From Daedaleopsis sinensis (taxonomy: Eukaryota > Basidiomycota > Agaricomycetes > Polyporales > Polyporaceae), in NCBI GenBank assembly GCA_033807695.1, contig CM066303.1, positions 1,116,001 through 1,180,000 of the forward strand: a stretch of 64,000 nucleotides of DNA, given 5' to 3'. The position numbers and the translations under genes were made by a program. Positions 12,817 to 61,602 of this stretch are shown here, piece after piece. The notes below the pieces were generated by a model that was not told the DNA's origin, ran no database searches, and saw nothing but the letters and a program-made list of their open reading frames with translations. Positions within the stretch are counted from its first letter, which is position 1, and each line of letters starts with the position of its first letter.

Positions 12817-12832
12817 ATTAGTGTATACTCCA

Positions 12833-14819: not shown

Positions 14820-14850
14820 CAGAGGAGGAGGAGGAGGAGGAGGAGGAGGA
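14820..14850 (+). repeat. AGG microsatellite
   Basis: About ten AGG units just downstream of the AT-rich block. Confidence 0.9.
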
Positions 14851-15632: not shown

Positions 15633-15713
15633 AACTCCTTGTGTCTCATTTCTACCACTGGTCTGTTGCTCTCCGAATTGCTCTCATGCATCACGTCACG
15701 AGGAACTACCCAG

Positions 15714-15923
15714 TTAACCACAGCCACTCCGTCCTGTAGGCACTCGCCAAGGCAACAACAAGGGCGGAACTGTGAGTACCAGTTGAAACATATCGAAGAC
15801 GTAGTGTGCGAACGATGGTAAGCAGTCGTCCTTCCTCAGTATGCAGTCTACAAATTGCGGGGTGGTGGTGGGATCTACACCTTTGCTGGCTTTAGAGCCA
15901 TTAGATGTCAAGCCCATGGCCAT
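15714..15923 (-). pseudogene. Second LINE C-terminal tail fragment
   Basis: Encodes FVDCILRKDDCLPSFAHYVF, clearly related to the tail of the remnant at 15156-15632 (FFDALLQKDTLACLPAIAHY). Only this tail is preserved. The two fragments share orientation and are 80 bp apart. Confidence 0.5.
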
Positions 15924-15969
15924 GGTGTATACTCGCCATTTCTTGATCCCTCAACCGACTAAGGATCTC

Positions 15970-17375
15970 TCCCTGCACAGATTTGTGATCGCGCCCAAGA
16001 CGATGAATCGTACCACAACTCCATTGCCACCATATTCGATCTCGCCAAAAAAGGGTCCCACCGCTCGCTCGACTCTGCAGGCAACATCAACCAGGACACC
16101 TGCCCGAGAAGCATCTCATCACAGCCCTCCGCGGTCTTCGCCGATTCCTCGAACGTCTCGCGGGCGACAAGTCTCTCGACGGCTTCTTCTCCGCCCTCCG
16201 CGTCTGCGGCGTCGACATCCAACGAGACCCCGCCATCCGCTCGTGGTGCGACCAGCTCATCGCCCACCTCCGCAAGAACCCTCGACGAGCGCGGGTACGC
16301 ACGCAGCGACAAGGCGAAGCGCAACTTGAAGACCAAGAGGCTTCGAAAGGAGTGAGTCTCGGACAAGGGCCGCGCGTGGATGTACGTTTGCTGACATTTA
16401 CGCGTAGAACCGAGTACAAAGACAACGACATCGAGTTCGTGCTCGAGAACCTCGACCGTGATGTCGCGAAGTTCTCCCTCCTCCTGGGGCACGTCTACAC
16501 CTGCAACATCACCGACATCGACATTAAGGCGCCAGTCGTTGGCAAGACTGACACCTACGTCGGCACGCTCACCCGGGTGTATATGCAGGGCCTCCATATT
16601 CAGATCAAGGAGGTCTCGTTCTAGTACTTATGACAAGACGGCGACCGTCGGGCCCGCCGGATACAAAGGCCTGCTCAAGTCTACGCTCCCACCCCAAGGC
16701 GCCGACGTCGACATCGTAGTGCGCTCCCTCCCGAACTCGCCTCTCCAGGAACACTCTCACCACGAGGGCTTCCTCGACGTGCTGCGAAGGTCTCGGACGA
16801 GCTCGATTTCTCCGTGCGCAAGTCCCAACCACCAGATCCCTCGTGTCCGTCTTCAAGACCGTCATGCTCTCCCGCTTCCGGGAGGCGCTGCAGACGGTGC
16901 TCGAGCAGCAGATCCGGGGCGCGCTGTAGTACGCGGATGCGTTTTCGTGGGACGTCGGCCGGCGCGCGGACGTGTTCGCGGACACGGGGCTCCCGCGCGG
17001 CGTGAGAGTCGTCGCGGGCTTCTGGTCGGAGCTCGGGCACGTTGTTCTCGGGCTGGAAGGCAACGGGCACGGGGATCATCATGGACGACAAGGCGTCGGA
17101 CGCGACCTTCGCGATGGGCGCGGAGCCGCAGGTCCTGTCGGGCGAGAAGCATGGGCGAAGGGGACGTTCCCAGAGAGCGTGAAGGAGCACGCGAGAAGAA
17201 TACGGACATGGACGTGGACGCGCTTGTCGCGAATGCGAAGGGCGTCACGCAGCAGGCGGGGGAGACGGTGAAGGAGACGGTACAGGCGGTGAAGGGCTGG
17301 AAGGACACGGTGGAGAGTAAGGTCGAGGCGGAGAAGGCCAAGGACGGTTCGGAGAGCTCTGCGTTCGACTGGTGA
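15970..17375 (+). pseudogene. HAM1-like protein pseudogene (DUF5923/DUF4449-type)
   Basis: Pieces of one protein in shifting frames: DESYHNSIATIFDLAKK, then KHLITALRGLRRFLERLAG and SLDGFFSALRVCGVDIQRDP (frame changes near 16102 and 16280). An intron with GTGAGT donor and TAG acceptor (about 16351-16407) follows, then DIEFVLENLDRDVAKFSLLL and NITDIDIKAPVVGKTDTYVG. Stop codons interrupt at 16622-16624 and 16927-16929, and the frame shifts again near 16.77 kb. The C-terminus VKGWKDTVESKVEAEKAKDG...SAFDW ends at 17375. The family name is from memory of basidiomycete HAM1-like proteins. The retained intron argues for DNA-level duplication rather than retroposition. Several lesions make expression of a normal protein unlikely. 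Confidence 0.65.
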
Positions 17376-17689
17376 GCGTGTGCTACTAGTAGTGTTTTCT
17401 CTGGCGGGTTTCAAGGGCAAATGTACATGTATTAGTGTAATCGTGTTACTGCAACACACGATGGTTTATGCTCTCGCCCTTGTATCGCACTTGTGCCCGT
17501 TGGAAGGAGTGCGAACGCGCCGCGGCCCGCGGGTGCGTTTTGACAGCGCTCAATTTGAATCGCGTTCCCAGCGTCAATATCGGACCCTCTTCCTCCTCCG
17601 CGATGTCCACTTTGGCTCATGCTTCCGCTACACACACCCGCCATCGCCAACTCCTCAGGGAAAGTTAGTAGGTCACGCTATAAGCTGCG

Positions 17690-18420
17690 CCCGACCAAGT
17701 CCCCAGATGAGGTGCGCAAGTTCGTCCCGCCGCAAGCGGCTCATCACCGCGCAGCACATGGCCTACCGGACGTACTGCAAGTTCCCCGACCTGCCGCACC
17801 TGGGTCCCCGCCGACGCACCCACGCCTGCCACGACCAGTGACACCGAGGGCGGGCTCAAGATGCCTGCCGTCATGCGCTTCACGACCGTCCCTAGTCACC
17901 GTGCGTCCCCAGTCACCGTGCGTTCCCGCCCCCGCCCCCGTCTCCGTATGTGTGTGTCGGCGGTAGCTGACAAGGTACCCCGGACGCTGGGTGTGCAGTG
18001 CTGACGGCGGTACTCTCGAAGTGCGGGATGAGCGTGTGGATGTTCTGCGCGTTCGCAATCCTCTCGCTCCGGAAGCAGCTCGCGATCGTGTACATCGGGT
18101 CGCGAAGGAGGCCAGCTGAGGTGCGTCGCACCGTCTCTTTCTTCCCTTGCACAGATACATGGCTTCCGGTACGGTACTGACTCCTACTGAGGATCAGACT
18201 GCTGCTGCAGACGCCGCCCAGGCGCAGACCACCGGGCTCAAGGTCGTCGTCATCCTGATCTTGCTCGCGGTCACGGCCGTCAGGATGTGGTTCATCAACA
18301 AGAAGATGGACGAGGTCAAGCACCGCGTCGTGTGCGCGCGGCGCAAGGCCAGGTGCGTCACTTCACTTTTCCCCCTCTGTGCTCGCCCGAGATGCAGTGG
18401 CTCATGCATGATGGCCCGTG
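17690..18420 (+). pseudogene. Integral membrane protein fragment (TVP38-like?)
   Basis: Frame-broken segments: KRLITAQHMAYRTYCKFPDL (about 17.74 kb), EGGLKMPAVMRFTTVP (about 17.86 kb), then after an intron LTAVLSKCGMSVWMFCAFAI with LSLRKQLAIVYIGS (18.0-18.1 kb), and after a second intron a membrane segment GLKVVVILILLAVTAVRMWF followed by INKKMDEVKHRVV and an Arg/Lys-rich end. The order of hydrophobic segments and the basic tail resemble the C-terminal part of fungal Golgi TVP38 proteins, but this is a tentative resemblance. Frames change between exons, and no start or upstream half is present. Confidence 0.4.
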
Positions 18421-18479
18421 CAGGCAGGCCAGGGCACTCCCAGACTCGGACCTGTACCCGTCGCCTCCGGCCCCGATGC

Positions 18480-19353
18480 GGACGGCTCGGACAGTATCCT
18501 CCACTTGCTCGTCCTCCTTCAGGTCCTCCCGGTCTGCCGCCTCAGTACATGGCTCCTCCGCAGCGCATGCCCTCCGGTCAACCGCAGGGCCGCCCGGACA
18601 GGGACCCTATGGGGCTCCCTCAATGCAGTCTCCGCCCCTTCCTCACGGTCACCAGCCATTCTCACCACCCGGTCCCGGGGCGCAGTACGGACAAGGACCA
18701 CCTCAGTTTGCCCGTGCTACCCCGCTGCCGGGTGCAGCGACCTCGGGTCCTTACGCTCCTCCGCCTCAGCAACAGACGTCTGGTCCATACGCAGCCCCAC
18801 CGCAGCAACAGCAGCACTTCTCGCCCCAACAGCCTGGCCCGGGCATGCCGCCGCCGCCGCCGATGGGTGGGGCCGCGCCTCCGCCATCGGCGGCGCGGTG
18901 CGACTCCTGGGGGTGTGCCCCCTCCGCCGCGGGCGAAGCCCGGCCCTCCGCCCCCCAATACCGTGAGTGTAGAAGTAAGAGTTTGCAACATGCGCGTGCT
19001 GATGAGCCCTATCCAGCACCTGGCGATCGCAGTCACATCCCGGAGGACCTCCGCCCCATCTTCCAGGTTGTGTCTGGACAGCTTGAGCAGCTGAAGCAGG
19101 TTACTCCGGTAGGTCATACGTATATGCATGTCAGGGTGTTTCGTTCTGACGCGGGGTATATGCTAGCCACAACAGTTCTTGTTACGTCTTTCTTTCGTAG
19201 CATGCTGACGATTTCTGTCTGTCTGTAGCGATGGATGCGCACGACCGCGACCAGGCACTGGCGATCCACATGGACATCCTCACCCGTGCGTTCGCGACGG
19301 AGGACATCGGGTTGTGGATGTCGGACGTCAAGCAGCTCATCGTGCGGCTGTAA
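18480..19353 (+). pseudogene. SEC31: SEC31 C-terminal fragment (COPII outer coat)
   Basis: A Pro/Gln-rich segment (PPSGPPGLPPQYMAPPQRMP, later SGPYAAPPQQQQHFSPQQPG) shifts frame at least twice near 18.59 and 18.89 kb. It then reads GDRSHIPEDLRPIFQVVSGQ, a motif typical of the Sec31 C-terminal helical domain. After an intron it resumes AMDAHDRDQALAIHMDILTR and ends QLIVRL at 19353. The helices expected between these two parts are missing. It begins almost where the SEC31 pseudogene at 38444-40812 stops, so the two are complementary. Sec31 forms the outer cage of COPII vesicles; this piece cannot do so. Confidence 0.65.
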
Positions 19354-19681
19354 CTTGAACGTAGGAAGAGTGGCTATTTAACGATGTTCACGAACGACAA
19401 AAGAGACGCGTAAGATCGAGGATGGTTCTTATAGTGGATTAACTTGCAGATTCCTGTTTCAAGCTCAAGATGGATTGATTTCGACCGAAAGCGACGCTGT
19501 TGTCGCTGACCGCAATCAGCAGAAGTATTCGTCCATGATTGACATGGAATTTACAGCCTCGGCCTGTAATTTACAGGCCGTGGTTGTACGTGCATATGGG
19601 GTCAGTTATGTTTAGCGCCAGGGTACGATCTCGTTCCGCATGCTCGTTCAATCGTACTAAGTAGGAGAGGCTGATGGTCGT
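19354..19681. other. Intergenic, nothing recognised
   Basis: About 330 bp between the SEC31 fragment and the convergent FAD oxidase stop. It contains a short near-palindrome around TTTACAGCCTCGGCCTGTAA (19551-19570). Confidence 0.5.
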
Positions 19682-21475
19682 CTAAGACATGATTACCTCA
19701 TGCATGTCGCGAACGCCATGTACGAGTTTACATACTGTACATATGTATTCTTTCGCTTCAAGCCCGATCTCTAGCAAAGGTTCTATAGCGATGCCTTTAC
19801 TGAATATCTTGTTCGGATCGTATTTGGCCTTGATCTTCCGGAGTTGAGGCAGGTTATCCCCAAACACATCCTCGGGTTTTTCGTCTCCCTGACACATGTT
19901 GAGGAACCAGCCCAAGTCGCTCCCAGACAGCTCTGCGTTTTTGTTGCGCACAAGCTGCACCACTTCGGCCGCGAACGTTTTGCATGCCTCAACAGACTCT
20001 TGTGTCGTCGACCTAGCAAGTACGCACTGCCGTCAGGGCACACGCGCCCGAGAAATAATCAATCCCCAGGCAAGACGCACGCACCTTCCTTGTACGGCTA
20101 TCCAATAGTGCGGCTCGCGAGTCTGGAGCGCAGTCTCGTCCCCTTTGACGTCCGCGATCCTATCTGGCACAGTGAGGTCCCACAGCACGGCGGACGCACG
20201 TACGTCCGCACTTCTCTCCGTGAACGCAATCCACTTCTCCCAGACTACGCGCAGGAGCTCGGGGAAGAAGTCGGCGAACATCGTCCAGCGTATGACCAGC
20301 CGGAGCGGCGCGAGCGCGAGCGCTCTGTCTGCCCCATGTGAGAGTGCGAGGAAGTCAGGGACGAGGGCGACTTGATCTACGAGCGGCTTCGGGCGAAGTG
20401 TAGAACCCGGGTCGTGCTCGAGGTGGCGGAAAGGCGCGAATACGGTGGTAGCCCGTGTGCCGTCCGTGTCGTGGAGCGTTGATGGGAGTATCACAATAGA
20501 CGGCTGCAACCGCGCAGGGTGATCATTAAGTGAGTCGAAGCATGGAGAAGGTAGATAGGGAGATGATAGAGGCTCACCTGGTAGTTGGGCGCTGGACGCG
20601 AGAAGCTCATCGTGAAACGTTCTGCAGGGGTTTGCGTCCTCTTCCATTCCTGTGATGCGAGAGCTCGAGAGTTTGTCACGAACCAGGCAAGGAGCTGTTG
20701 TAATACACTTACGTTGATTGCCTTGATGATCACCTCGAGCTCGCTCTCGGAATACACGAGGAGTCCAGAAGAGTACGGACCAGAGAATGGATGAATCTTG
20801 AAGACAAACTCTACCACAATCCGAACTGCCTGCCCCCGCCTGTCAAGCCGTGTAAGCTCCGTGTTTTTGAATGACATAACGGTTTATACCTCTGATAGCC
20901 CAGAATAGGTCCGGCTTCTCGACCCTGCTCGTCTTCACAATGCTCCCGTCGGCGAGGGCAACCGTGGCGGACAACAGGTTGTCGATCGCTAGTCCGTATT
21001 TGCCGCTGAGTGGACCATACCCTCCTCCGAGGGTATATCCGCCGACACCGACGAACCAGAGCGGCGAGCCGACGACGTCAACTTGAGTCTTGGAAGTGAC
21101 CTCGTATACGTCCCCCCACAGCGCGCCGCCCTGAACCGTAATGGACTTTTTATCTGGAGCGTGGACAACCTCGTTGAGCGTCGACAGGTCGATGACGATG
21201 CCACCGTCCGAGCTGGCCCAGGTAGACGAGTGTGCACCTCCGCCCTTGACGACTATCTCGACGGGAGGGCTATGAGCGGCTGCAAGTGCCAGAACGGGAG
21301 GGATGTCTGCGAACGTCGCGGGCTGCACGATGTAGGCCGCGGGGAGGGTGGAGAGGTCCGAGTTGCGTCTGAGCGCTGCCGTGTAAAATTCGCCACTGGA
21401 TGGTGTGAGGATGGTGTCTTGTAGTTGAAGGGTCTCCATGACAGTGTGTGCCCTCCCTGGAATAGTTCGGTACAT
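19682..21475 (-). CDS. FAD-linked oxidase (BBE-like), with apparent frameshift
   Basis: FAD-binding type-4 domain: PPVEIVVKGGGAHSSTWASS, GGIVIDLSTLNEV and VGVGGYTLGGGYGPLSGKYG. Introns follow at about 20.9, 20.7, 20.55 and 20.06 kb. The C-terminal part has FADFFPELLRVVWEKW and ends in a BBE-like segment NLPQLRKIKAKYDPNKIFSK. Starts at ATG 21475 or 21439 are possible. After the intron joining WAIRG, translation gives the expected GGRQFG, but the next residues IVVEFVFKIHPF are in another frame; one base appears missing between 20820 and 20821. All later splices keep frame. Enzymes of this family oxidise diverse alcohols or sugars, often in secondary metabolism, usually as secreted flavoproteins; no signal peptide is obvious here. 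It may be a young pseudogene or carry a sequence error. Confidence 0.75.
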
Positions 21476-21566
21476 GGAGGTAAGGCTAGGTTCGACTACT
21501 TATTTGTACCCAGCCGCTCTAGTCCGCAAGCGTTAGCCGTTTCACTCGGAACAGCGTCCGTTAGCA

Positions 21567-22223
21567 CGGCAGCGCACGCACGTCCCCGTGTCTCTGTGCG
21601 GGTACGAGCCTATGCTGTGGAGCCATATCATAACAGGAAGAAAGAGAGAGGATAGCAGAGACAGAAAGGAACGGACAAGAATAATCACTCACCCAACGAA
21701 AAGGAAGGGTTCATGCGCCAAATATCTACTCCGCGGCTTGGAAAGTCGCGACGTCGGCGTGCGCGTCCTCCTCTGCTTTGATTTCCTCTAGGTTTATGGC
21801 TGATATGGTGAGGTGAAAGTCGTCCGGCAGCAAATGGGGAGAGCCAGACAATGGGCATGCTAGTGGGCAACTGAGAAGATTGTGGCCGGCGGCTGCGTCT
21901 GAAGAACGATGGTACAGGGACCACCATATGCGCTCGCGTAGATTATAGTCTAAAATGAGGAGTACAGAACGGTGACCCCATGATATTGGCAGCGTAGTAG
22001 CTCGAACGAAGCGGAGAGAGGGGGGGGAGGAGGAGGAGGAGGAGACCTAGTGTATTTCGGCGAGATCTAGCAGGGCGAGGGCAAGATGATGGTTCCGACT
22101 CCCGAGTCAGTTGCTGTGGGCGCCTGTCCTTAGTCTCTTGGCGCTTATATCTCGCGCTCCTCATAGGCTCAGGCCCTACGTGAATTGCGCCATCAAAACC
22201 TCTTCTTCCTTCTTTGTTCTCCT
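21567..22223 (-). repeat. Inverted repeat arm A (~657 bp)
   Basis: Reverse complement of 42576-43225 with only scattered differences. The two translated 80-residue frames inside differ at two residues. A 7 bp net length difference lies between base 21927 and base 22191, a stretch that includes a GGA-type microsatellite (about 22020-22045). The arm lies just upstream of the FAD oxidase start. Confidence 0.92.
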
Positions 22224-25200: not shown

Positions 25201-25560
25201 GCGTGCGGCGGACGGAGTGTGATGGATACTTGGGTCGAAGAGTAGAGGAGAGAGCGAGGAAGGAACGGTCGATCTGAGAGGATAGGGGGGGGGAGGGAGC
25301 AGCAGTGTTTGAGTCGTAGGTGGGCTGAGAGAGAACGTACGGCGACGAGGAACATATAGCCCGGTTCGGACGGTGGAGGACTACCGGACATTGAACTTGA
25401 TTTAGGCCGATTGGATGGGAAACGTACGAGGGTAGGTGGCTGATGTCGATGAGGAGAGGTAGGTGGCTAATAAGGAGCGGGCAGAGCTGAGAGGGACAGA
25501 CTGATTGCGGGCATGGACGAGGGACACACCTGAGAGGGCAAGGCAGCGCAGCACGTCGAA
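22293..25560. other. Region without recognised gene
   Basis: About 3.3 kb. 22.5-23.0 kb has weak coding traces on the plus strand (VRKKLKRTNFGILSLSRAGN, DMAITDLYLASDVALQLL) but no consistent gene. 23.2-24.4 kb is GC-rich with only overlapping frames on both strands. 24.9-25.56 kb shows strong purine/pyrimidine strand asymmetry and short runs (a G7 run near 25285). Confidence 0.45.
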
Positions 25561-25626
25561 CTGTCACTCAATCGTCACTCAACTGTCACTCAACCGTCAC
25601 TCAACTGTCACTCAACTGTCACGCAA
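25561..25626 (+). repeat. 11 bp minisatellite upstream of JmjC gene
   Basis: Six units of TCACTCAACTG with small variations (TCACTCAATCG, TCACTCAACCG). It ends 60 bp before the JmjC gene ATG, so it lies in its proximal promoter or 5' UTR. The same unit recurs at 36441-36531. Confidence 0.9.
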
Positions 25627-25685
25627 TCGCGACTCGGACCCTTGCGCGTATCACTGACTTGAACTTCTCCGATCAGGAAGAAGGG

Positions 25686-28625
25686 ATGTTGCCGGTGCCT
25701 GGTCCACCACCAGTTCTCAGTGAGTGTCCTTGATAGCGTTCAAAGTGCTCGCTGACACTCCGGTATACAGGCTGCGATGAAGTCAAGTTGCTGGAACAAC
25801 TGGAGGCTGAGACTTCTACCATCTTCATAGTACAAGGGGTCGACGTTACCCTTGATACCACTATGATCTCGCAGGATAGTCATGAAGCGCACAGGGTCAT
25901 TCGAGGCCGTGTAAACGACAACTACGTCAACGTCGTCGTATTCAGCGAATCAGTCCTCGATCCTCCCATATCCTTCGGATGCGCTGGCGACCTGTGGGCT
26001 TGCACCGCCAAGAACAAGCTCTCACTCCACTTCCGGACGAAGGAGACATGGGAAAATGTCCAGCAGACACAATTCTCTTCTCTGTCTACTTCGCATCCTC
26101 TTCATTCGACTAAAGTGGAGCTCGTTTATAACAATGACCGGCTTCGGTGGTACGCCCATATAACTGCGGTCAACATGCGCAGTAGGTACAACAGAAATCC
26201 GAACATTATCCACCATGATCAGCCTTCTCGTTCACGTCTTCATACCGCGGGTGGCTCCATATCGCGGTACACCGAGCTCTCCGTCGCGGACGTCGTCGCT
26301 CACTGTGGCCGACACGTTGCTCGCCTTGTTGAACTGGCCCCTCACGGCCCACCGATTTGCTCAACCGCGACTGATCGATCACGGGTCCCTCGAACACCCT
26401 ATACTCAGTGGCCTTCAGAGGCACAACTCGTAGATTGGGAGAATCAAGATCGCCTAGCCTCCCTACCCTCAACGGTCCCCTCGTCCCACGACGCGGATGC
26501 AGGGTCTTTAGAGACGCTCCCACAGACCACCCAAACGGATGCTCTGTTGGCCATTCTTCCAGCTCCTCGCTCCTCTCCTCATCCGGCTTTTGTGGATCTA
26601 CGACCGCCGATACATACTGCCGATGAGGCTCCCTTGAACGGTTCAAGCGCTTCACACACTTCGCCTGGCCTTTCTCCTCTGGATCTCGCCCAGGTTCTAT
26701 CAACGTTCGAGCACTGTGACTCTTCTTCAGCGCGCACGCCAAAATGTAAGGTGTCAAACCCATTTCGTAGCACTCTTTACACTCACAATCTTTACGCTTC
26801 CGAGGAATTAGTACCGACTGATCGATTGAGACCAGGTCGCATACCCTTCCTCGACGAGTCTGTTAGTGTTGATGTTCTCATGCCCTGCGCCACCTCGACC
26901 GAGTTTCCGAAGGACCACAATGCATCATGTACCTGGTGGAATGGGATGCGTACCTTGCTGCCATTCCTTACAGAGTCGAATCCGATCAAGGTGAAGAGGA
27001 ATGGACTGGAAGTGGGGGTGCGTAGCCCACTATTAGTTCCAGTCTTATCAGCGATACTGATAATTCTGTTGCAGGATCCCGATGTCCGAATAGTAGAATG
27101 GGCTGCAAAAGCGTCACTGGATCCTACCCTGCCTGTCGGTCCCGAAGGAGACCCCATGGTCGAGGTCTTAGACAACAATGATGCTCCTTCCTCTATTACT
27201 TACGATGAGTTCGCATCAAGAATACGATCATGCCTGGCTTCTGGTCGAGCTGTGCTCGTCAAGAATTACTCAATCACGGGAACACAGTCACCACCCCTAG
27301 AGTGGACCGAGGAATCGGCGAAGCGGCTGAGACGGCTAAATCTTCCAGTCCAGTGGCACAGTAAGCACCTCGTATCTGCAAGCTCTCGTGTACTTACGAA
27401 GCCCCATAGGCGCGAAGAACAGAGCGATCGTCAGACAGAATAGACGTCGCAAAGTAAAATCCTCGCCTCCAGAGCACGTCACCACATCCATGGCGGAATT
27501 CTTAAAAACTGCCGACGATCCGACGATCTGCGCAAATCTGCTCGATATCCCGCAAGCGCACTCACAACTACCATGGTTCATTAAGTAAGCCATGTTGTAT
27601 GCAAATGCGGATATTTGATCTCAGATTTACCCAACAGACAAGTGTCCGACGATCTGGATGCAATCGAGGCTACGCAAAACGATATAAACAATCTGCCCTA
27701 TGACATTCAGCGCATGCGACATTGGGCCCTCATGGCCAACGGCGGGTTCGTAACTCATCCTCACCACGACGCGCACGGGCTTGCCACCTGGGTCGCGGTC
27801 ACCAGCGGGGGGAAAATGTGGACTCTCTTTAGGCCAAGATCGGGGGATATTGCCGATGTCGAAAAGGTTCTAATCGGAATGGCCGAGGCACGCGATGAGG
27901 AGTATCCGGGAGCTATTCCTCTGGAAGCCGTCGATGTTGCTACAGTACCTCTGTTGCCAGGCGCGGTTCTGTGAGTACATGATCACTACATCGAGCCACC
28001 ACTACGACTGATATGGCGGCCCAGAATACAGCCGCCTGGAATGTTTCACATGGTGTACACACCCGTGAAAACGATCGCATTAGGAGGTCATTTCCTAACA
28101 ATGGAGACGCTGCCCCAGACGCTGCTCACCAGGATCGTGCAAGCCAAGACTTTCTTCTGCGCTACAAATGCCTCGCACGCCGGAATCCTCAGAGCTCTAT
28201 CTCGAATGGCGATATCACTTGGTGGAATACCAAATAGTAAGTACTCATGGCCCTCAGAGCCGTGACAGTCTGATAGCTAACCACCTGGCATAGTCAATAC
28301 AGGCGCATTTCGTGCTCTGGAACACCTGCTGCTACACGAAGAGCACTATCCGCTTGATTCAGAGAGGACAAGACCTAGCGATCCTGAATTCCTCGCTGAT
28401 TATGAGCGAGCTCTCACAGTCTTACACCGTATCCGTGAACACAACGCCCTCCCTGGAATACAAAGCCCCACCTCCTTCCATTGGCTGGATCCCTACTATG
28501 AAATCGGAACAGAATGTCTTGAGATTCCGGTAGCTGACGTTGTCGTTGATGGTGGTCGTCCGCGACCAGACTCGGACGTTGCTGGCGTCGAAGGTCGCGC
28601 CTTCAAGAAAGCCCGCAAGCATTGA
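25686..28625 (+). CDS. JmjC domain protein with long N-terminal extension
   Basis: ATG 25686 (MLPVPGPPPVLS) splices through a GTGAGT intron to CDEVKLLEQLEAETSTIFIV. The large second exon (to about 27360) encodes an unrecognised N-terminal region of about 530 residues. Introns at about 27.36, 27.59, 27.97 and 28.24 kb all keep frame. The C-terminal third is a JmjC-like dioxygenase fold: HWALMANGGFVTHPHHDAHG, with an HxD iron-binding motif, KMWTLFRP, VPLLPGAVLIQPPGMFHMVY with the third histidine, and ALGGHFLTMETL. The end is GRAFKKARKH, stop at 28625. JmjC proteins are Fe(II)/2-oxoglutarate oxygenases acting on histones or other proteins. Related JmjC-like genes are expanded in Agaricomycetes with unknown substrates. 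The gene appears intact. Confidence 0.82.
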
Positions 28626-36440: not shown

Positions 36441-36531
36441 TCAACTGTCACTGAGTCGTCACTCAACTGTCACTGAGTCGTCACTCAACTGTCACTGAGC
36501 CGTCACTCAACTGTCACTCACCTGTCGCACC
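36441..36531 (+). repeat. 11 bp minisatellite with alternating units
   Basis: About eight units alternating TCACTCAACTG with TCACTGAGTCG, giving a 22 bp higher-order period. The unit is the same as at 25561-25626. It ends about 58 bp before the left end of the CACTA-like element. Confidence 0.88.
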
Positions 36532-36588
36532 TGTCAATTGTCACACAGGTTGCTATTGAGGCGCACGCACTGGCAGGGTATGACACAG

Positions 36589-42575: not shown

Positions 42576-43225
42576 CGGGGAACAAGGAAGGAAGAAGAGG
42601 GTTTGATGGCGCAATTCACGTAGGGCCTGAGCCTATGAGGAGCGCGAGATATAAGCGCCAAGAGACTAAGGACAGGCGCCCACAGCAACTGACTCGGAAC
42701 CATCATCTCGCCCTCGCCCTGCTAGATCTCGCCGAAATACACTAGGTCTCCTCCTCCTCCTCCTCCCCCCTCTCTCTCCGCTTCGTTCGAGCTACTACGC
42801 TGCCAATATCATGGGGTCACCGTTCTGTACTCCTCATTTTAGACTATAATCTACGCGAGCGCATATGGTGGTCCCTGTACCATCGTTCTTCAGACGCAGC
42901 TGCCGGCCACAACCTTCTCAGTTGCCCACTAGCATGCCCATTGTCTGGCTCTCCCCATTTGCTGCCGGACGACTTTCACCTCACCATATCAGCCATAAAC
43001 CTAGAGGAAATCAAAGCAGAGGAGGACGCGCACGCCGACGTCGCGACTTTCCAAGCCGCGGAGTAGATATTTGGCGCATGAACCCTTCCTTTTCGTTGGG
43101 TGAGTGATTATTCTTGTCCGTTCCTTTCTGTCTCTGCTATCCTCTCTCTTTCTTCCTGTTATGATATGGCTCCACAGCATAGGCTCGTACCCGCACAGAG
43201 ACACGGGGACGTGCGTGCGCTGCCG
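42576..43225 (+). repeat. Inverted repeat arm B (~650 bp)
   Basis: Reverse complement of arm A (21567-22223). The right edge is sharp: identity ends at CGTGCGCTGCCG (43225). The left edge is at about 42576. The interval between arms is about 20.4 kb. No terminal inverted repeat or target duplication of its own was found. Confidence 0.92.
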
Positions 43226-44155: not shown

Positions 44156-45368
44156 TGAGTGTGGCCGAGACACTGTTTGCTTTCTGGAGAGCCCATGCAG
44201 CGACTCGAGAAGCGGTTCACGAATTTTCTGGAAACGGAATCAGGATAGTAACGTTGCTTATCCAGCTCTTGCGGTTGGGGACGCCGGTGGGCCGCCCTTA
44301 CTCCCCTGACTGAATACTGGGGACGACGAGCCGTCGTCTGGATGCCTTCTTTGTCTCTCGTCTTCGCGCGAAGTTGACCTCCCCTGTCGCCACCTCTTCG
44401 CGGGCGGCGAGTGCACGGTGACCATCCCGTGCACCCTGCGGCCACTCAACCCTATGTGCATTGCCATATCCATCCACCTTCAGGCGACTAGTAGTACTAC
44501 CCGAGACTCGAGTTACAGATACGGGGAACATGCCCGCTCCCGCCATCACGACCGCCTCGCGCAAGCTCGACCAGCCTCGACGAGATGACATGCGTACTCG
44601 CGCGCCATCCACCCGGCGGCATCTTCTCCGGCTCCGCTCGTCCTCGTCCGGGCTAGGCGCAGATGGACTAGATGTATACATCCTCGCGCTCCCAGTCAAT
44701 ATCAGTTCACAATGAACTTTACCCCCTCGCTGGGGGCCTACGGGAGCGCGATGACTCTGGTAAGCACATAGTCCATCTGCCGCGCTCTGTCAGTCTCATG
44801 TCCTCTTCGAGCAGGGCCCAGTTCTAACTAGGCTCAGGCTAGCCGACCGTAGCTTCCTATCGATGAGAGCGCAGTTTATCTGTCAACAGTTCGGCTACAA
44901 AAGCGGGTAGATACTCCGGGTACTTAAGGGCAGTACCACCAACTATCAATATCAGCCCGCGCAACGCTCGAAAGCGTGCTCGTTTCTCTCGCTTTTGACC
45001 ACACCATCCAATATCGTGTGCCCAACCTGTACGTGGTACCGTTGAGTATTGAGACTCTGCCCACGCTGCAAATCCCTGAATGTGGGCACCAACCGTATCA
45101 CAAGGCTTTACCGTTACCGTTCAAGTCTGTCATCATTGTGTGCCCTTTCAATCTTATAACTAGCCTACTCACTAACTCACATGGGCGGCAGGTTTCTCCC
45201 TCATCTCTTTCGCAAACACAGCCACAAGCTGTATTGTAAGGGAAGATCAACCTCGTGGCTAGCCTCAGGTATCGAGATTCCGGGTACTGGATCCCGAGGC
45301 ATCAGGCGCGCTCACACGTTGCAGTGTGCACGATATCCACGATGCCGACCAAGATTTCGCGATGCGAT
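44156..45368. other. Region without recognised gene
   Basis: Short frames only. 44.3-44.7 kb is GC-rich with overlapping open frames on both strands and no splice support. Confidence 0.4.
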
Positions 45369-45770: not shown

Positions 45771-45780
45771 TCAGGACCAC

Positions 45781-45965
45781 TCACCCGCCCGTTCACCCAT
45801 TCACCCGTTCACCCGTTCACCCGTTCACCCGTTCACCCGTTCACCCGTTCACCCGTTCACCCGTTCACCCGCTCACCCGTTCACCCGCTCACCCGTTCAC
45901 CCGTTCGCCCGCTCACCCGTTCACCCGCTCACCCGTTCACCCGCTCACCCGTTCACCCGCTCACG
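45781..45965 (+). repeat. 8 bp tandem repeat, ~23 copies
   Basis: Units TTCACCCG and CTCACCCG with few other variants. Because 8 and 3 share no factor, all three forward frames stay open and encode the same repeating octapeptide (PVHPFTRS). The array ends 15 bp before the F-box gene ATG. Confidence 0.97.
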
Positions 45966-53113: not shown

Positions 53114-54311
53114 TGCACGTAGGACTTACCCGCCTCATGACTAGCACACTCCGTACGATTATCGCTCTTTCGGGCGAGCTCCAGATTAAGGAAACGAACC
53201 ATTCGAACGGCACCACCCACGAGAGTTTGATCGGCGGTGCAAGCACCGGAATACTGTAGATACGTCCGCCGTGGATCACCGTCCGTCGTGTCAGACTGTC
53301 AGTGTCGCCCGATAGAATGCGTGGCCTGCTAGTACATGTCCGATGGCGATTGCGCGCGCACACAGCGAGGCGAATGAGAGAGTGACTTGGCGATCGCAAG
53401 CACATCTTTCTTGGTCTAGTCTAGGGCATCGCGCGCTATCAACAAATCGGGGTGGTTCTGAGCAGCCGAAATGACTTACAGTACACGATTGTCCCGCGAT
53501 TGCGGCTGTCGCAGTCGTTAGCGGTGCTGCGCATGACCTGTGGTCGCATCAACAGGCCCCGCGGCTCACGGATGCTGACGAATGAAGCCTGAACGCGCGA
53601 TTGTGATAGTGGACACCAGGATAAAGCATGAGGATGCGATTGCGAGAAGCATGAGGCTTGAGGCCTTGAGGATCGGTGCGAATTAATGGACTCTAAAGTC
53701 AGCGAGGCACGCATTGCAGACACACGTTGAAACCTGCAGGATCAGCTGGTCGGTCGGTGCGTGGCGAGATAGAAACGGGGGAGCGGGGTTACCCAGATGC
53801 TGTAGGACACCGACGACTGAGGACTCATGAAATTGTAGGGATTGTGGGACATACCTCGCAATCCCCATCGCAGTTAAATTCTGCCACACAAGTGCGAAGG
53901 TTGTCTAGGATGATGGGAGGACGATCTGAATCATGGCCTCAGGATGTAACGGGCGTTCGAGTCACAGGTCTGAACTGTGTTACCGTCACGGGGCGGACCG
54001 CTCGTCACACGTCCCACTTAGGAAAGAGCCTCGGGTTCCTGACCTTAACCCCGGTTTTTTACAACATTGACTGCAAGGCTACACCATCGCTTGCGACACC
54101 CTCATCTGCTACACGAGCTCCTGTCTTATAATTATCCGTTGGCAGCACTCGAGCATGGCCACTAGACTCCGGTCGTACTCGTCCCCTCGTCCCCGCTCAC
54201 ACACCATACGCACTCGACCATGACACCGACCTATCTTCAACGTGAGTTGGAACGGTGCGAACACCATGCACATATTTACCTTCATTGAACAGGTGTCCAG
54301 CAAGTTCTCAG
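53114..54311 (+). repeat. Arm 1 of perfect 1,198 bp inverted repeat
   Basis: Exact reverse complement of 60405-61602 wherever compared: paired coordinates sum to 114716 at both ends and in the middle, so there are no length differences. Long translated frames in the two arms are identical. It spans the intergenic region between the minus gene ending its 5' side at 52989 and the plus gene starting at 54220, including that gene's first 92 bp. Confidence 0.95.
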
Positions 54312-55241
54312 GGAGGTTGCCATTAACAACGAGAGCAGTATCGAACATCAGATGCTGATCTATCGCGGTACGTTGTTCGAGTTGATATCCTCGTTCTCCG
54401 TTCAATTCTCCCGCAGTTCGATCGCGAAAGCTTAGAAGCTCTGACGAAGCTTACTCCCCATTCCGTCTTGATGTTAACGCTGCCCTTGCTTTCCTTGTGA
54501 GTACTTGATTCCCTCACTCATGTCTCTCATCCTGATCCTCCCCTCACGGGTAGTCGCAGGCGGGGTATGTGCGGATCGACCGAGTGCACAAACCACCGCT
54601 CGTGCGAATTACTCCTGCGGGCAAACATGTGTATGTACGCGTAGCGCACTTCCCGTGTACAATCACTCACCTTGCCCTAGGTTCGCATCCATGGCTCCTC
54701 TTCCTACTCCGATCACACCTTCACGCAAGTTAGTCCGTTTCAGACGTGCTTCTTTCAAGGAGAAGGTTCGCTCCCCCTTGTGCGTGCATAGGCATCATTC
54801 CCTGAGTCCTGACAATTACGGGGACCCCAGGCTCTGCAGGATTATATCAACTTAGCCGAGATCATCACATTGATTCAAGATGTCGTCGCAGAACGGTCGT
54901 CCAATCCTTCGAAAAGATGCCCGGTAGACCAGCTAGTACCTACTGTGCGTGCGTCCTTGAACGCATGAGTACTCCTTTCCTCACGCTGTCAGGTAGATCC
55001 GAGCCTACCTGGATGACAGCGAAGGACTGAAGGGACAGGTGCGTACTTCCCTTGAACGCACTAGCACGCTCTACATCTTCCATCCTTCATACTTGATTTG
55101 AAGACCCAAGATTGCAACAAAGAGCTTAACCTCATTTCGAGCGAGTTCGCGAGCCGTAGTGCGGATGTGGCGGAAGGAATTTACTATAATGTGGACGAAG
55201 AGGATGAGGACGACGAGAACGAAGTGGAGCGTGCCACGTGA
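54220..55241 (+). CDS. Uncharacterised protein, 5' end inside repeat arm
   Basis: ATG 54220 (MTPTYLQ) splices by a GTGAGT/CAG intron to RVQQVLREVAINNESSIEHQ and MLIYR. A GTACGT/CAG intron leads to VRSRKLRSSDEAYSPFRLDV with NAALAFL, then GYVRIDRVHKPPLVRITPAG. Later pieces are VRIHGSSSYSDHTFTQVSPF, LQDYINLAEIITLIQDVVAE, IRAYLDDSEGLKGQ and QDCNKELNLISSEFASRSAD, and the end is acidic (DEEDEDDENEVERAT, stop 55241). The early joins all keep frame; the later ones are less certain. No family recognised. The first exon and part of the second are identical to the start of the minus-strand frame at 60496, because both lie in the inverted repeat. Confidence 0.5.
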
Positions 55242-55558
55242 TTGTACAGTACCAGAACGCGTAGAAGAATATGAGCTTGGGCGTCGTAATCCACATGTAT
55301 ACTACTCCACTGTCAAGGTTGATGCGTTGATGTTCGGAAGTCGAGTCTAGCTTTCTCAACATTGTGGACGCAGAGGGCGTCTAGATGCAACGAAGGTTCC
55401 TCTGCCGCCTGCGCAGCGGAGGCGCGCCGGGAAAATCACGCGCCGGAGCTTCGTGGCCTGAGGCCTGAATTGAAAGTTGAACTCGAAGCTCTGACTCTGA
55501 CGCGACGTCTCCCTGCACCTGTACCACACGGCACTCCGTTCTATTGCTCCCAGTTATC

Positions 55559-57447
55559 ATGTTCAACTCTGCACACTACTCTGCCTATATCGAAGTCAAT
55601 CATCTCACAAATGGCCACAGTGACACGATCAATACCTTATGCTTCTCTCCGGACGGGACACATCTTGTGAGCGGTGGGGACGACCGTGCGATGTGTATTT
55701 GGAACATCCTGAAGGGTCAGCTACTGTACCGGCTGTTATTTGACGAGGCGGTGGACTGTGTGCTGTGGCATCCTACTCACCCAGAGACTGTGATTGTGGG
55801 TCTGTCTAATGGGTACCTTGGCCAGGTGTACGGGTTTTCTTTGGTACGTGCACCCCGACGGTCTATTAAGATTCCCGTTGACCTTGATAGTTAACCAATC
55901 ATCGGCACGATATTCGTTTGGGAGCCCGGAGCGCCGTTTACTGTCTCGACTACGATCCAAGTACCACCTGTTTAGCAATAGGCATGGGTGAGGAAGTACA
56001 CATCACCCGAGAAGTTTCCTCAAGTGAGGCGCATCATGTCTTCATTGACACCGATCTTACTGAATGTGTGGTAATAGATTGCTATGACGGTGACATCGTC
56101 TTTCCTAAACCACCAGAACCCGACTCGATGAATAGTCCAAGAGACACGCGACTCCGCGCAGTGTACCTCAAATTCCATCGGGATGGCTCCAACTTGATCG
56201 TCTGCTACATCGGTCATGGAATCATGTACTGCTAAATATCGGTGAATTGTGAGTGACCGCTGATAACCTCTCGTAGCTGCTGGGATACGACCAAACGCGA
56301 TATGCTCTGGCGTCTTCAGATGCCCGACCATTCTCCGAACATGTGCGTTTTATAGCCGATGTGTCTTCCGGTATGGCATGCTGATGCAATTATTGTGTAG
56401 AGGAGGAGCTGCATTGAGCCCGAGTCACCGACATCTTGCTGTATACAACGTCGTTGACGGGCTTGGTCTCTACGACGTTGGAAGGAACGGCAAGTCGAAT
56501 CCTGGGCGAACATATATGTTAAGGGAGCCCCCCAAGTACCGACACCACTTGCAAGTCCACTTCATACACGACGGCAGGGCCCTAATTTGCGGCACTACCA
56601 ACGGACAAATCACTTTGTGGAACTCGGCAACAGGAGAGGCGCTTCAAGAACTCTCTCACAATAGTATGTGTGCGAGTTACTTATCTTCGTGTCACTCAAT
56701 CTGACTACAGATCTTAATGTAGGTGATATCATCCAGGCTATAGGCGTACGTACCTATCTCCATGCTTCTTCATCGCAGACGCGCTTGTTGACGACACACA
56801 GACTATTCAGCGTGCACGTGAACGGAGCTCGCTTGTTGCGACTGGATCGGCCGATAAGGGTCAAGAGACGTACATCAAGATATGGAGGGCTAGAATAGAT
56901 GCGGGAGAGTCAGTCATGAGTGCGTACCACATGCCGCTGGTAACTTAACGCTATGTAGTCACTAATGCTAGCTCTGCAGATGCTCCCGACGTGGTAGCCA
57001 AGCTCATCCAAGATGTACTTGTGAGTGTTCTGATCATTTGCCCTCCGTAAGTCTAAGTTGACGCGCCATCTTCAGGGACAACAAACGCTTCGCGATGGCT
57101 TAACCGCCGTAGTCGGACTGGTGTTGTTTAGCTTGATTACGTGGGTTAGTGCGAAGGTGCCATGGCCGACTGTCTGGACGATACTACACCCCGCGGCAAG
57201 TAACAAATTTCTCTAATCCATACTCACACTCATTTTTGAACAATAGCTCAAAGGCTCGGACGAATTCTTCCAAGTTATATACATAGCGTTGACGAAGGCA
57301 TGGACGCAGTCTGTGAAGTACATGAAGGAGTGGGGATCCACCGCCGTGCTCGAGTTCACCATATTCTTGAGAAACGCTCTTCTCTCTTTTCTCTTCCCTG
57401 ATGGAGCCGATCACCCCCCGGGCCCGCTACTCGAACACGGACTATGA
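55559..57447 (+). CDS. WD40 repeat protein with C-terminal membrane segment
   Basis: ATG 55559 (MFNSAHYSAYIEVNHL) is followed by WD40 blades: HSDTINTLCFSPDGTHLVSG with DRAMCIWNIL, VDCVLWHPTHPETVIVGLSN, VYCLDYDPSTTCLAIGMGEE, and after introns GALICGTTNGQITLW-type sequence (ALICGTTNGQITLWNSATGE at 56.58 kb) and GSADKGQETYIKIWR in a later frame. A hydrophobic C-terminal helix LTAVVGLVLFSLITWVSA follows at 57.1 kb. A GC-AG intron (GCAAGT donor at about 57196, TAG acceptor at 57244) probably joins LHPA to LKGSDEFFQVIYIALTKAWT, ending LLEHGL at 57447; without it the protein stops at 57216. WD40 propellers are protein-binding scaffolds. The membrane helix suggests anchoring to an internal membrane. 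Similar predicted proteins are common in Agaricomycetes; function unknown. Confidence 0.7.
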
Positions 57448-57722
57448 CGCGACTATTGTAAGTCGATGTATGTATTATGCATATGACTGGGCGGGATATT
57501 GACGTGGAATCGTGCGCGAGAATACGAAGTTCCGACATATGATTAGGCTTTCCAGCTTGACTATTGTGCTTGTCCTGTATGCGATTTGTTACGAGTCGGT
57601 TATCTACGAGAGATATATACAAATGCGAAGTGCCCTCCGGGCAGACCTAAGTAGGACACTCTTGGTTTGGTGTCAAGCGAATACTGGCGACGGCGGTGTA
57701 TTCGAGTCCTAGCACTAGCGCA

Positions 57723-58653
57723 CTACAGATCCGGTGATATTGTACAGTAGTTGACAGTTGACATGCCCTGGCTCCCCTTCTTGCTCTCGCGAGCAAGCTT
57801 CTCGACGCGGCCCTTGTACGTGCGCACCGTGTCCTTCGTGACCCAAGAAGGCTCTCCATTCTTTTGAAAATTGAGCACGTAACCCTTCAGGTGAAGATGA
57901 GGATGAAGCACCCCGACTGAGAGCCACTCGGGAGTCGAAGTGCGTAACCACGCTTGCTTGACATTGTTGTCGCTGGTATGGATGTATAGATCACCGATCT
58001 GCGCGCTTGCTAAGGTGGGCGGGGCATCAAGAAGCTGACCGCTGCGAGACGCAAACCAGGCAGTCTTTTCGTTTCGGATCTTGTCTCCACGGGTGCGTAG
58101 ACTGCGTGAGAAGAAGGAAACCTCCAACAGGCCACTGTCGCGATTGTCAATGCAGCAATCAAAAAGCTCTAACACATCGTACGCACATAGAAGTTATGAG
58201 GAAGTGCGTGTCGAAGTGTGTGTCAACGTCGATCCGAGCCTGCGCTCCCTGCTGCGTCAAGATGCTTGCGTGACAAGGTTAGTACCTCATTCACCCTCAA
58301 CAAAAGACTCGATACCTTCTTGAAGCAGCGGCTTTTGCTTTCCGAGAGCGTGATGGCGATCGCTCGCTTGAGACAGAGAGTCCAGGAGAAGAACAAGGCG
58401 GCCCTCGACTAGTTGTAGGAGGCAGAGCATTTGATGCCTGAGGCATGACAAGCCTCGCGGGTGAGGGAGCGACTGCAGCATTGTTGAGCGGCTCGGTAGT
58501 CGCAGGCTGAGCAGGCGGGTGAACCGTTGAGGGAAGGACGCTCGATAGTTCGACGGTAGCAGGAGGAACAGCGACGGGGATATGGCCGGATGTGACCGCT
58601 GTGGATTGCGGAAGAGGATTTGCAGGCTTCGAATCGTCGTCCGTATCATCCAT
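57723..58653 (-). CDS. Uncharacterised protein with disordered N-terminus
   Basis: ATG 58653 opens MDDTDDDSKPANPLPQSTAV, an acidic then Pro/Ser-rich stretch ending SERSPSRSRKAKAAAS. An intron with a GTATCG donor and an exact TACTAAC branch point ends at a CAG near 58.26 kb. A further exon carries DVDTHFDTHFLI. The last exon is well formed: ELFDCCIDNRDSGLLEVSFF, NEKTAWFASRSGQLLDAPPT, IGDLYIHTSDNNVKQAWLRT, HLHLKGYVLNFQKNGEPSWV, and stop at 57723. The join between the first and last exons was not fully resolved. The IGDLYIH...W...NGEPSWVT pattern recurs, as I remember it, in unnamed basidiomycete proteins. Confidence 0.5.
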
Positions 58654-60348
58654 GTGCAGCGCAGTTGGATCTCACTCACCGAAGGCCCGCCAATACCCCC
58701 ACGCGTGGCCGTAACCGTCGGTCCATCGCTAGGTATTACTCCACTACTGAGGCCTGATATTCAATATAACCGGCTCTTCCAATGCGAGCGTGTATGGACA
58801 GGGACGTACCTTTGGACGGTCCCTTGTTGACGGAGGTGTCGATGGCGCAGGATAATGGATGATGGTTTGAGAGGAGCGCCTTCGTCGCTGGGAAGCAGGA
58901 ACGCAGGGTGGAAAGGGTAATTGACTTTCAACGTAACTGGGAAGTCCGGTTCAACTACGCTGTTCTGAGGCGACGAGGTTTATCGATATACGGAGTGTGG
59001 CGAAGAATTGAGGTGGACTGACGGGGGCGAGAAGGGCAGTCGGGAGCAGTGCCGGACCGGCTGCCACTACTTTCATAGGTGCAGAAACATGACCTGCTTT
59101 AGCGAACGTTGCCATGATGAACCTCGCAGAAGTAAGAGAGTTGGTGGAAGGATGCTAAGCAAGGTGAAAGCGGGACCTGGGCGGGACCGTGGACGAATGC
59201 CAGTGACACTGATAATAATATTGGAAAGTGCGCACTGCGGAGCACCAGTAGCACGTGACGCTAAGCACGAGGCGGCTTGCCTCAGGCTCTTGGGCCGAAG
59301 GCTTGAAGCTTTAGGCCTTGAGGCCTGAAGCTTAGCCTTGAAGCTGGAAAGGTTTAAGATTATATGTACGAACAATGGTGATCAGTTAATGCAGGTCCTT
59401 GCCGTTCACTGTGCGTACACTACGATGTCGGGTTTCTGAGGCATGCGAGGAGGTCCTCAAGCGTATTACTGTAGCGCTGACTGGAGCTTTTAGCGGTCCA
59501 ACTTCCACCGCTATACATCATATGTCCTTCAAGTAGCCAGGAGATGGATTTCCTATTAGGCTATCCTACTGCCTGCATCCAAGTCACCTTTACCCTCGCA
59601 CCGCCGGTCCCTTTCGTACTCTAGCCTGCTCCTTCGGGAGCCTGTTCTTCGAGAATTGTCAGTGGATCTCGTGCACTACTCAGAATGTGGGGTACTGCAG
59701 CTCCGCGAGAGATGCAAGAATTTCCTGCACCTAGCAGTCACTGTGAGTCCCCGGAGGGGAGGACAAGCCGCAAGCATTGTAGAATCGTACCACATCTGGA
59801 AGGCTACCGATATCTTGAGCGTCCACGGTATATTCCGGGTAAGCGGCGATGCAGTCGAGCTGGATATCCGTGAGGACTCCGTGTAACTTTTTAGAATGCT
59901 GCTCAATCTGCGAGAAGGAAAGTCAACACTAGGCGCCTCCGGACATGCAAATCAAACGTACTTGTGCGATGGTCATACGGTGAAGGCGGTAATCTCCCTC
60001 TTTGTATAAGGGGAAAACCCCCCACTCTTTGTAGCTTCACACAGTAATGAGTACAGATGATTGTGAGGGCAAGTATCGCCTTACAACCGAATACCAGACG
60101 GTGTCAGCCGGACAAGTGGGATGTTGTTATGGTGCTCAACACCCAGGCGTCGAGCCCGAGACTACGAAAAGAATCAGCAGGATCAAGGGATAGAACGGGG
60201 TACCACCGACCTCACGCTTCACAACAGACTGGATGATGAGACGATATCGCGGTCCGCACCTAACGCCGCCTCTCTCCGTGTTGCGTCGGACTGTTATCAT
60301 TCAGCTGGTGTGTGAGACAAGGTAAGATCGACAAAACTACCGACATAC
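58654..60348. other. Region with weak coding traces and low-complexity DNA
   Basis: Probably contains exons of the minus-strand frame that starts at 60496, but none were joined with confidence. 59275-59350 is low-complexity (GGCCTTGAGGCCTGAAGC and relatives). A plus-strand stretch 59656-59886 encodes GVLQLRERCKNFLHLAVTVS and KATDILSVHGIFRVSGDAVE without an ATG in clear context. Confidence 0.4.
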
Positions 60349-60496
60349 CACGGCGAACGAGCTCTTCGAAAAGAATCGTGGACTTCTCGTCCTTGATGCG
60401 ATCGCTGAGAACTTGCTGGACACCTGTTCAATGAAGGTAAATATGTGCATGGTGTTCGCACCGTTCCAACTCACGTTGAAGATAGGTCGGTGTCAT
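60349..60496 (-). CDS. 5' end of a gene sharing its start with 54220
   Basis: ATG 60496 gives MTPTYLQ, the same GTGAGT/CAG intron and RVQQVL as the gene at 54220. Past the repeat edge (60405) the frame stays open with different residues: SDRIKDEKSTILFEELVRR, followed by a good GTATGT donor at 60348. So the arm 2 copy also makes an open, spliceable coding start, with a different continuation. Downstream exons between 58.7 and 60.3 kb were not resolved; the listed end is the last supported exon. Confidence 0.4.
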
Positions 60497-61602
60497 GGTC
60501 GAGTGCGTATGGTGTGTGAGCGGGGACGAGGGGACGAGTACGACCGGAGTCTAGTGGCCATGCTCGAGTGCTGCCAACGGATAATTATAAGACAGGAGCT
60601 CGTGTAGCAGATGAGGGTGTCGCAAGCGATGGTGTAGCCTTGCAGTCAATGTTGTAAAAAACCGGGGTTAAGGTCAGGAACCCGAGGCTCTTTCCTAAGT
60701 GGGACGTGTGACGAGCGGTCCGCCCCGTGACGGTAACACAGTTCAGACCTGTGACTCGAACGCCCGTTACATCCTGAGGCCATGATTCAGATCGTCCTCC
60801 CATCATCCTAGACAACCTTCGCACTTGTGTGGCAGAATTTAACTGCGATGGGGATTGCGAGGTATGTCCCACAATCCCTACAATTTCATGAGTCCTCAGT
60901 CGTCGGTGTCCTACAGCATCTGGGTAACCCCGCTCCCCCGTTTCTATCTCGCCACGCACCGACCGACCAGCTGATCCTGCAGGTTTCAACGTGTGTCTGC
61001 AATGCGTGCCTCGCTGACTTTAGAGTCCATTAATTCGCACCGATCCTCAAGGCCTCAAGCCTCATGCTTCTCGCAATCGCATCCTCATGCTTTATCCTGG
61101 TGTCCACTATCACAATCGCGCGTTCAGGCTTCATTCGTCAGCATCCGTGAGCCGCGGGGCCTGTTGATGCGACCACAGGTCATGCGCAGCACCGCTAACG
61201 ACTGCGACAGCCGCAATCGCGGGACAATCGTGTACTGTAAGTCATTTCGGCTGCTCAGAACCACCCCGATTTGTTGATAGCGCGCGATGCCCTAGACTAG
61301 ACCAAGAAAGATGTGCTTGCGATCGCCAAGTCACTCTCTCATTCGCCTCGCTGTGTGCGCGCGCAATCGCCATCGGACATGTACTAGCAGGCCACGCATT
61401 CTATCGGGCGACACTGACAGTCTGACACGACGGACGGTGATCCACGGCGGACGTATCTACAGTATTCCGGTGCTTGCACCGCCGATCAAACTCTCGTGGG
61501 TGGTGCCGTTCGAATGGTTCGTTTCCTTAATCTGGAGCTCGCCCGAAAGAGCGATAATCGTACGGAGTGTGCTAGTCATGAGGCGGGTAAGTCCTACGTG
61601 CA
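60405..61602 (-). repeat. Arm 2 of perfect 1,198 bp inverted repeat
   Basis: Reverse complement of 53114-54311. Its right edge lies about 72 bp upstream of the next plus-strand ATG candidate (61675), mirroring arm 1, whose left edge is 124 bp upstream of the minus-strand ATG at 52989. A GTAAGT donor sits 15 bp inside this edge in both arms. Confidence 0.95.

Follow-up and report, generated by a model that had tools for sequence, protein, structure and literature searches.

The stretch analysed here, hereafter the window, comprises 64,000 nucleotides of the polypore Daedaleopsis sinensis (C4:1116001-1180000, C4 standing for contig CM066303.1 of the assembly GCA_033807695.1, 51.6 Mb in 24 contigs); coordinates without a contig prefix are window positions. 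Two 1,198-bp arms in inverted orientation enclose a spacer of 6,093 bp and form with it an arm-spacer-arm unit of about 8.49 kb. When the arms were directly aligned as reverse complements, 1,198 of 1,198 bases matched with 0 mismatches, which bears out the perfect arms without indels described in an earlier reading of this DNA from its letters alone (the sequence-only reading). A perfect match of this length is far beyond chance. It ends exactly at the arm coordinates given below, on both sides; the repeat search stretches it to 1,201 nt through one mismatch on the inner side. Most probably, this inverted repeat is an internal part of a giant, 99.3-kb DNA transposon of the CACTA/EnSpm type, and its arms may derive from an inverted duplication inside the element.

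10558-10560: TAT, the left-hand 3-bp target site duplication; the right partner is C4:1225888-1225890, outside the window
10561-64000: giant CACTA/EnSpm-type element, of which the left and middle portions fall here; the remainder lies beyond the window
10561-18489, plus strand: left terminal inverted repeat (TIR), 7,929 bp, starting CACCGGGGCCATAAATACAT; mate at C4:1217982-1225887, 7,906 bp
11400-14650: short repeats, both direct and inverted, in subterminal arrays with a motif like CACTAATAYCAATAATGTTG, from the repeat search
53114-54311, plus strand: left arm of the inverted repeat, delimited by arm alignment, repeat search, genome search and four-arm comparison
54312-60404: spacer, with a DNA match elsewhere found only in the second element copy, on contig C3
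60405-61602, minus strand: right arm of the inverted repeat, delimited as the left arm

Ends, copies and extent of the giant element

The element spans C4:1126561-1225887 (99,327 bp, 53.7% G+C), from window position 10561 past the right edge, and its left end recurs inverted at its right end. The two TIRs of this copy align over about 7.9 kb, with some inner blocks inverted between the two ends. The second copy occupies C3:120933-239597 (118,665 bp) and owes its greater length mostly to an insertion of 18,888 bp. Its ends carry the same TIR blocks over the 8-10 kb compared per side, the left end with about 1.3 kb extra. All four element ends begin CACCGGGGCC and are identical across the 71 bases shown, and a genome search for the 25-base element end with up to 3 mismatches allowed retrieves these four places and no others. 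Each copy is bordered by a target duplication of its own, TAT on C4 and AAC on C3, three bases being the longest matching length at both sites. No similarity was detected between the flanks of the two copies in any of six pairings (best E value 0.19), for which 10,560 and 1,113 bases were taken on C4 and 1,932 and 403 bases on C3. Shared precise ends, TIRs, a 3-bp duplication per site, a tnp2-family transposase and copies that are about 99.9% identical where compared can all be read directly in the sequence. With 99.3 kb, the element is unusually large for the CACTA class.

Inside the element, C4:1160420-1207511 aligns with C3 in inverted orientation, well past the repeat, and the window segment 30001-33000 matches C3:216175-219176. 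An arm-spacer-arm structure with equal spacing and identical borders is present at C3:169757-178245. Genome searches placed the arm sequence at four sites, two per element copy, and the spacer at two; an assignment of the arms to a repeat family was therefore rejected. The sequence-only reading had proposed that the enclosed interval could invert. In the one comparison available, a continuous alignment, the spacer points the same way with respect to its flanks in both copies, which lends no support to frequent inversion.

An open reading frame (ORF) is cut by the inner TIR border. Its left version (18120-19094) has 324 amino acids and its right version (C4:1217605-1218351) 249, both from a common start, as though one end had served as the template of the other.

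The transposase and class features

A 535-amino-acid ORF on the minus strand of the element (C4:1193092-1194696) matches the Pfam family Transposase_21/tnp2 with an E value of 2.4e-18 and Plavaka with 7.8e-4, the latter below that family's cut-off. Its residues D225, D322, C341 and C344 are invariant in eight of eight aligned proteins (the ORF and seven homologues). The next exon contains HNSLH and FFSER, whose counterparts in the Lentinus tigrinus homologue P0012 are HNALH and FFSER; this part is aligned to P0012 only, as P0013 stops earlier. Judged by motif, these positions would represent the catalytic and zinc-type residues. Since P0012 aligns piecewise down to C4:1191184, the transposase gene looks largely complete. 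The protein would cut at CACC...GGTG and insert the element with a 3-bp stagger.

Fungal EnSpm elements are characterised in PMC12730594 by CAC..GTG termini, 3-bp duplications and a transposase with two D, C(2)C, H(3-4)H and E. The giant element shares all three traits with them: CAC..GTG termini at four of four ends, a 3-bp target duplication in both copies and a tnp2-type transposase in which the residues of this signature are assigned by motif. Subterminal short repeats, which are usual at CACTA ends, are also present and are dense at 11400-14650. Plavaka elements have a related transposase and Agaricomycotina hosts in common with the element, but their termini are given in PMC12730594 as TGT..ACA or CATCA..TGATG, whereas the element has CACCGGGG..CCCCGGTG, that is CACC..GGTG. 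Its 3-bp duplication also differs from the 8-bp target duplication of Zisupton/KDZ elements.

We also considered a smaller CACTA element nested around the transposase and rejected it for want of a suitable inverted pair: within C4:1165000-1217900 the best pair spanning the gene was 26 bp long (E value 0.005), and none of the CAC..GTG pairs with a matching 3-bp duplication reached 14/20 matches among 161,014 start-end combinations. Throughout the genome, 33 places match the transposase strongly (E <= 1e-60, a cut-off set after viewing the list), and the closest one outside the giant element has 63% identity.

Spacer genes and the association with WD40 proteins

55559-56662, plus strand: exons of a WD40 gene, spliced by eye; the ORF of the N-terminal exon matches WD40 (PF00400, E value 2.8e-11)
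57723-58193, minus strand: ORF of 156 amino acids with the motif PSWV; distant relatives at C4:1188083-1188358 (26%) and C9:134510-134878 (31%)

Homologues of the spacer WD40 model, 46-61% identical over at least 97% of the query, were found in Cerioporus, Polyporus, Lentinus, Lenzites, Cubamyces and Grifola, with a shorter match in Ganoderma. The C4 relative of the PSWV ORF belongs to the giant element itself, at a distance of about 5 kb from the transposase. A related element on contig C9 likewise has the transposase and a WD40 gene, together with a counterpart of the spacer minus-strand gene. Two more WD40 genes are located in the giant element, 6.8 and 12.8 kb from the transposase. The spacer WD40 gene is of a different subtype (24-36% identity to these two) and is situated on the opposite side of the transposase at a distance of 20.2 kb, just beyond the 20-kb limit applied below.

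A genome search with the Cerioporus homologue P0121 returned 64 rows at E <= 0.001, corresponding to 40 loci, six of them in the giant copies. Among the 34 loci outside, 27 are within 20 kb of a transposase place, compared to about 2.5% expected, a roughly thirtyfold excess. The binomial p value of about 2e-37 makes the association look stronger than it is, because the limit was chosen after viewing the list and several WD40 loci adjoin the same transposase. Conversely, a WD40 gene is present within 20 kb of 26 of the 33 transposase places, both giant ones included. The seven exceptional WD40 loci, at 21 kb to 829 kb from a transposase, may encode ordinary host WD40 proteins. Because of the proximity of most outside loci to a transposase, the WD40 protein seems to belong to the regular equipment of this CACTA clade, the association being strong in the one genome analysed. 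A longest contig of 26,079 for both the transposase homologue P0065 and the WD40 homologue P0128 suggests that these two may lie on one contig. The spacer would hold an extra module, a WD40 gene and an opposite-strand gene, of a kind regularly carried by this clade.

As an end of the C9 relative, C9:120-122 kb was considered and rejected, being a subtelomere-like repeat instead. Near-identical copies of this repeat family (C9:120001-122000) occur on C4, C6, C9, C11 and partly C1, several of them near contig ends, and the family looks subtelomeric.

Origin of the small inverted repeat

Further near-identical self-duplications occur in the giant element. Besides the inverted pair listed here, these are a 681-bp direct pair of 99.9% identity and a broken inverted block adjoining the right TIR in pieces of 496, 418 and 127 bp (98.6-100%).

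21567-22222: internal self-duplication, arm 1 (656 bp, 97.9%)
42577-43225: internal self-duplication, arm 2, inverted mate of arm 1

Given these duplications, we favour an inverted duplication during repair as the origin of the small repeat. The arms would have arisen inside the element shortly before the two copies split, by template switching or by gap repair after excision, and the same process may have left the three other internal duplications as well.

The main alternative is a nested relative that has no target duplication, which we consider possible but less likely. The 8.49-kb unit would then be a non-autonomous CACTA-type element with 1.2-kb TIRs and a WD40 module, lacking a transposase and having lost its target duplication. 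CAC..GTG is indeed present two bases inside the outer ends of the unit (TG-CACGTAGG...CCTACGTG-CA). The distinct subtype of the spacer WD40 gene and the CACTA-accessory type of the spacer genes agree with a separate origin, as does the best match of P0121 outside the giant copies (C6:3611604), with a partial match to a CACTA transposase 4.4 kb away. The 9-mer CGCAATCGC, three times in the arm, is weakly reminiscent of a subterminal motif, but 22 of 500 Markov-sampled controls also hold some 9-mer at least three times, and we set it aside as a weak candidate. Against a nested element, no 3-bp target duplication was found at either reading of the ends, though the region is young, no further DNA match to arms or spacer was found in the genome, and CAC starts inside the repeat border instead of at it. 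At the outer ends of the arms, where the left flank ends ATTTACTGCA and the right flank starts CGGCGGAATT, no direct match was found at any length from 1 to 11 bases, in agreement with the lack of a flanking target duplication noted in the sequence-only reading. That reading had not favoured a simple transposon for this reason; this holds for the 8.5-kb unit itself, yet the unit sits within a much larger transposon.

Age of the copies and identity of the arms

In 45,874 aligned bases from two clean blocks, the two copies differ by 47 single nucleotide polymorphisms (SNPs) and 19 gap columns (0.10%). The SNPs include 39 transitions; at 29 of these sites C/G on C4 faces T/A on C3, and at 10 the bases are the other way round (binomial p 0.003). 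CpG context on C4 applies to 23 of the 29 sites, and CpG context on C3 to five of the 10 reverse ones. This pattern would fit methylation-driven decay that was stronger on the C3 copy.

In the four-arm comparison the C4 arms are identical, and the C3 arms differ at four sites, all C:G to T:A and each private to one arm. From copy-wide rates, calculated with the SNPs of the arms counted in and transversions assumed to fall equally on both copies, 1.7 changes are expected for the pair of C3 arms (P(>=4)=0.10) and 0.7 for the pair of C4 arms (P(0)=0.48), so that neither the four changes observed on C3 nor their absence on C4 is unusual. At none of the 1,198 positions does an arm difference need to predate the copy split (95% upper bound 0.25%), which implies that the repeat was new or freshly homogenised at that time. 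The very recent duplication put forward in the sequence-only reading is supported by this result and by the low divergence of the copies. With identical arms on C4 and only private changes on C3, perfect arm identity probably reflects mainly youth.

The sequence-only reading had also suggested that the arms still undergo gene conversion. Such a process, of the kind seen in long chromosomal palindromes, could explain the identical C4 arms, and one of four variable sites in the TIR stretches compared (2,426 columns) looks concerted within copies, so some exchange between inverted repeats may occur. None of the four variable arm sites is concerted, however, and the low divergence of the copies accounts for the identity alone. 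Conversion was thus neither needed nor seen; we rejected a long gene-converted palindrome for lack of concerted arm sites and regard conversion as an improbable reason for the arm identity.

Assembly artefact and segmental duplication

The sequence-only reading had also considered a join of two haplotypes of a dikaryon. Copies as similar as these could indeed be haplotypes; a spurious duplication involving C3 and C4 is a related possibility. Yet the flanks are unrelated, the 3-bp duplications differ, only the C3 copy carries an 18.9-kb insertion with an 8-bp duplication, and the SNP spectrum is CpG-biased. Moreover, (CCCTAA)n telomere repeats are found at the start of both contigs and also at the end of C3, which therefore looks complete. 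Ten 150-base tags (C3 at 60, 240, 280 and 350 kb and 3.0 Mb; C4 at 950, 1050, 1090 and 1400 kb; C10 at 500 kb) each matched near-identically only themselves, the four other matches having at most 79% identity. Likewise, no near-identical second copy was found with either of two 3-kb probes (C4:3.0 Mb and C1:2.0 Mb), the first of which has paralogues of at most 72%. The absence of second copies in 12 of 12 probes indicates that the duplication is a bounded block and not a second haplotype set, and together with the flanks and the distinct target duplications it led us to discard the haplotype join; an assembly artefact of any of these kinds is hardly credible.

A plain interchromosomal segmental duplication carrying the repeat without transposition, for which other equal-score place pairs on two chromosomes of this genome could be quoted, is just as implausible, as the ends coincide to the base with TIR termini and each site has its own 3-bp duplication.

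Insertion, cargo and other repeats

20843-21499, minus strand: cargo ORF with a FAD_binding_4 domain (Pfam E value 1.1e-23)
44420-44427: 8-bp site GGATGGTC, read on the minus strand; duplicated around the KDZ-type insertion present only on C3

The insertion that lengthens the C3 copy (C3:186924-205811, 18,888 bp) is absent from the C4 copy; it is flanked by the 8-bp duplication GGATGGTC and has imperfect TIRs and a CxC2 (KDZ-associated) domain. Twenty-eight ORFs of the giant element were scanned against Pfam. At the thresholds applied, twenty-two remained without a match; three gave weak matches only, and three exceeded a curated cut-off, namely the FAD-binding fragment, WD40 and the transposase. 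No tyrosine-recombinase captain was matched among these 28 ORFs, from which shorter exons were left out. An Rfam scan of the whole window gave 0 matches.

At least three parts of the element resemble other loci: 18489-19439 and C10:3487245-3488353 (91-96%), 16381-17473 and C3:4665200-4666316 (85%), and 26731-28529 and C3:3121795-3123589 (79%), as found by scoring 38 of 112 first-look candidates. They look like captured host DNA, though copying may have gone in either direction.

Tandem arrays within the element include one of about 20 copies of an 8-bp unit (CACCCGTT) at 45778-45960 and two of one 11-bp unit family (AACTGTCACTC) at 25559-25635 and 36443-36541, 10.8 kb apart. Elsewhere in the genome, equal or nearly equal match scores were obtained for C1:4879694-4907173 with C2:4023604-4051083, which also have equal spacing (26,994 bp), for C9:1759643-1794076 with C8:1824685-1846421 and for C11:3.22 Mb, C9:3.06 Mb and C2:4.23 Mb. 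This suggests more large recent interchromosomal duplications.

Discussion

A giant CACTA-type element with two young copies is, in our view, a strong claim. Several points nevertheless weigh against the interpretation of the inverted repeat as an internal duplication in such an element. Transposition would have brought the element to its sites, but this is read from structure only, and two copies are few. The base-by-base comparison leaves out C3:129001-140000 and C3:206501-230000, where similarity is represented by the 3-kb match and the listed similarity pieces. The ends of the C9 relative were not found. The frame of the spacer WD40 gene is not cleanly joined near 56300-56400, so that this gene may be damaged. 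As to the duplication mechanism, a form of the element without the repeat was not found in this genome.

Enlarged CACTA families of the red alga Chondrus measure 16-20 kb with 4-5 ORFs according to a review (PMC6431247), as opposed to 99.3 kb with 7.9-kb TIRs here. In size class the element is rather like the eight elements of 42-606 kb called Starships in the basidiomycete Tremella fuciformis, as reported in PMC13066641; giant basidiomycete elements are therefore not new as such. Starships, however, are recognised by a tyrosine-recombinase captain gene (same paper), whereas the transposase of the element described here is a DDE-type tnp2 protein, its TIRs are long and its target duplications measure 3 bp. 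Among the open-access matches listed (titles and starts of abstracts, no preprints), we recognised neither a CACTA element of about 100 kb nor a WD40-encoding fungal one, which is no proof of absence.

Whether these observations extend to a lineage is, in our estimate, evenly balanced: polypores may harbour large CACTA elements with a WD40 beta-propeller as standard second component, some of them gene-carrying and about 100 kb in size, as a DDE-transposase counterpart of Starships, and the inverted repeat may mark the gain of a module by internal inverted duplication. The link to WD40 proteins provides a concrete, testable candidate partner for fungal CACTA transposases, and since the two copies are young and their CpG-biased differences lie mostly on one of them, the silencing of a giant element could be followed here. 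If a CACTA transposase can move about 100 kb, giant cargo transposons of fungi do not depend on captains of the tyrosine-recombinase type, and blocks of mushroom genes could travel by a different engine.

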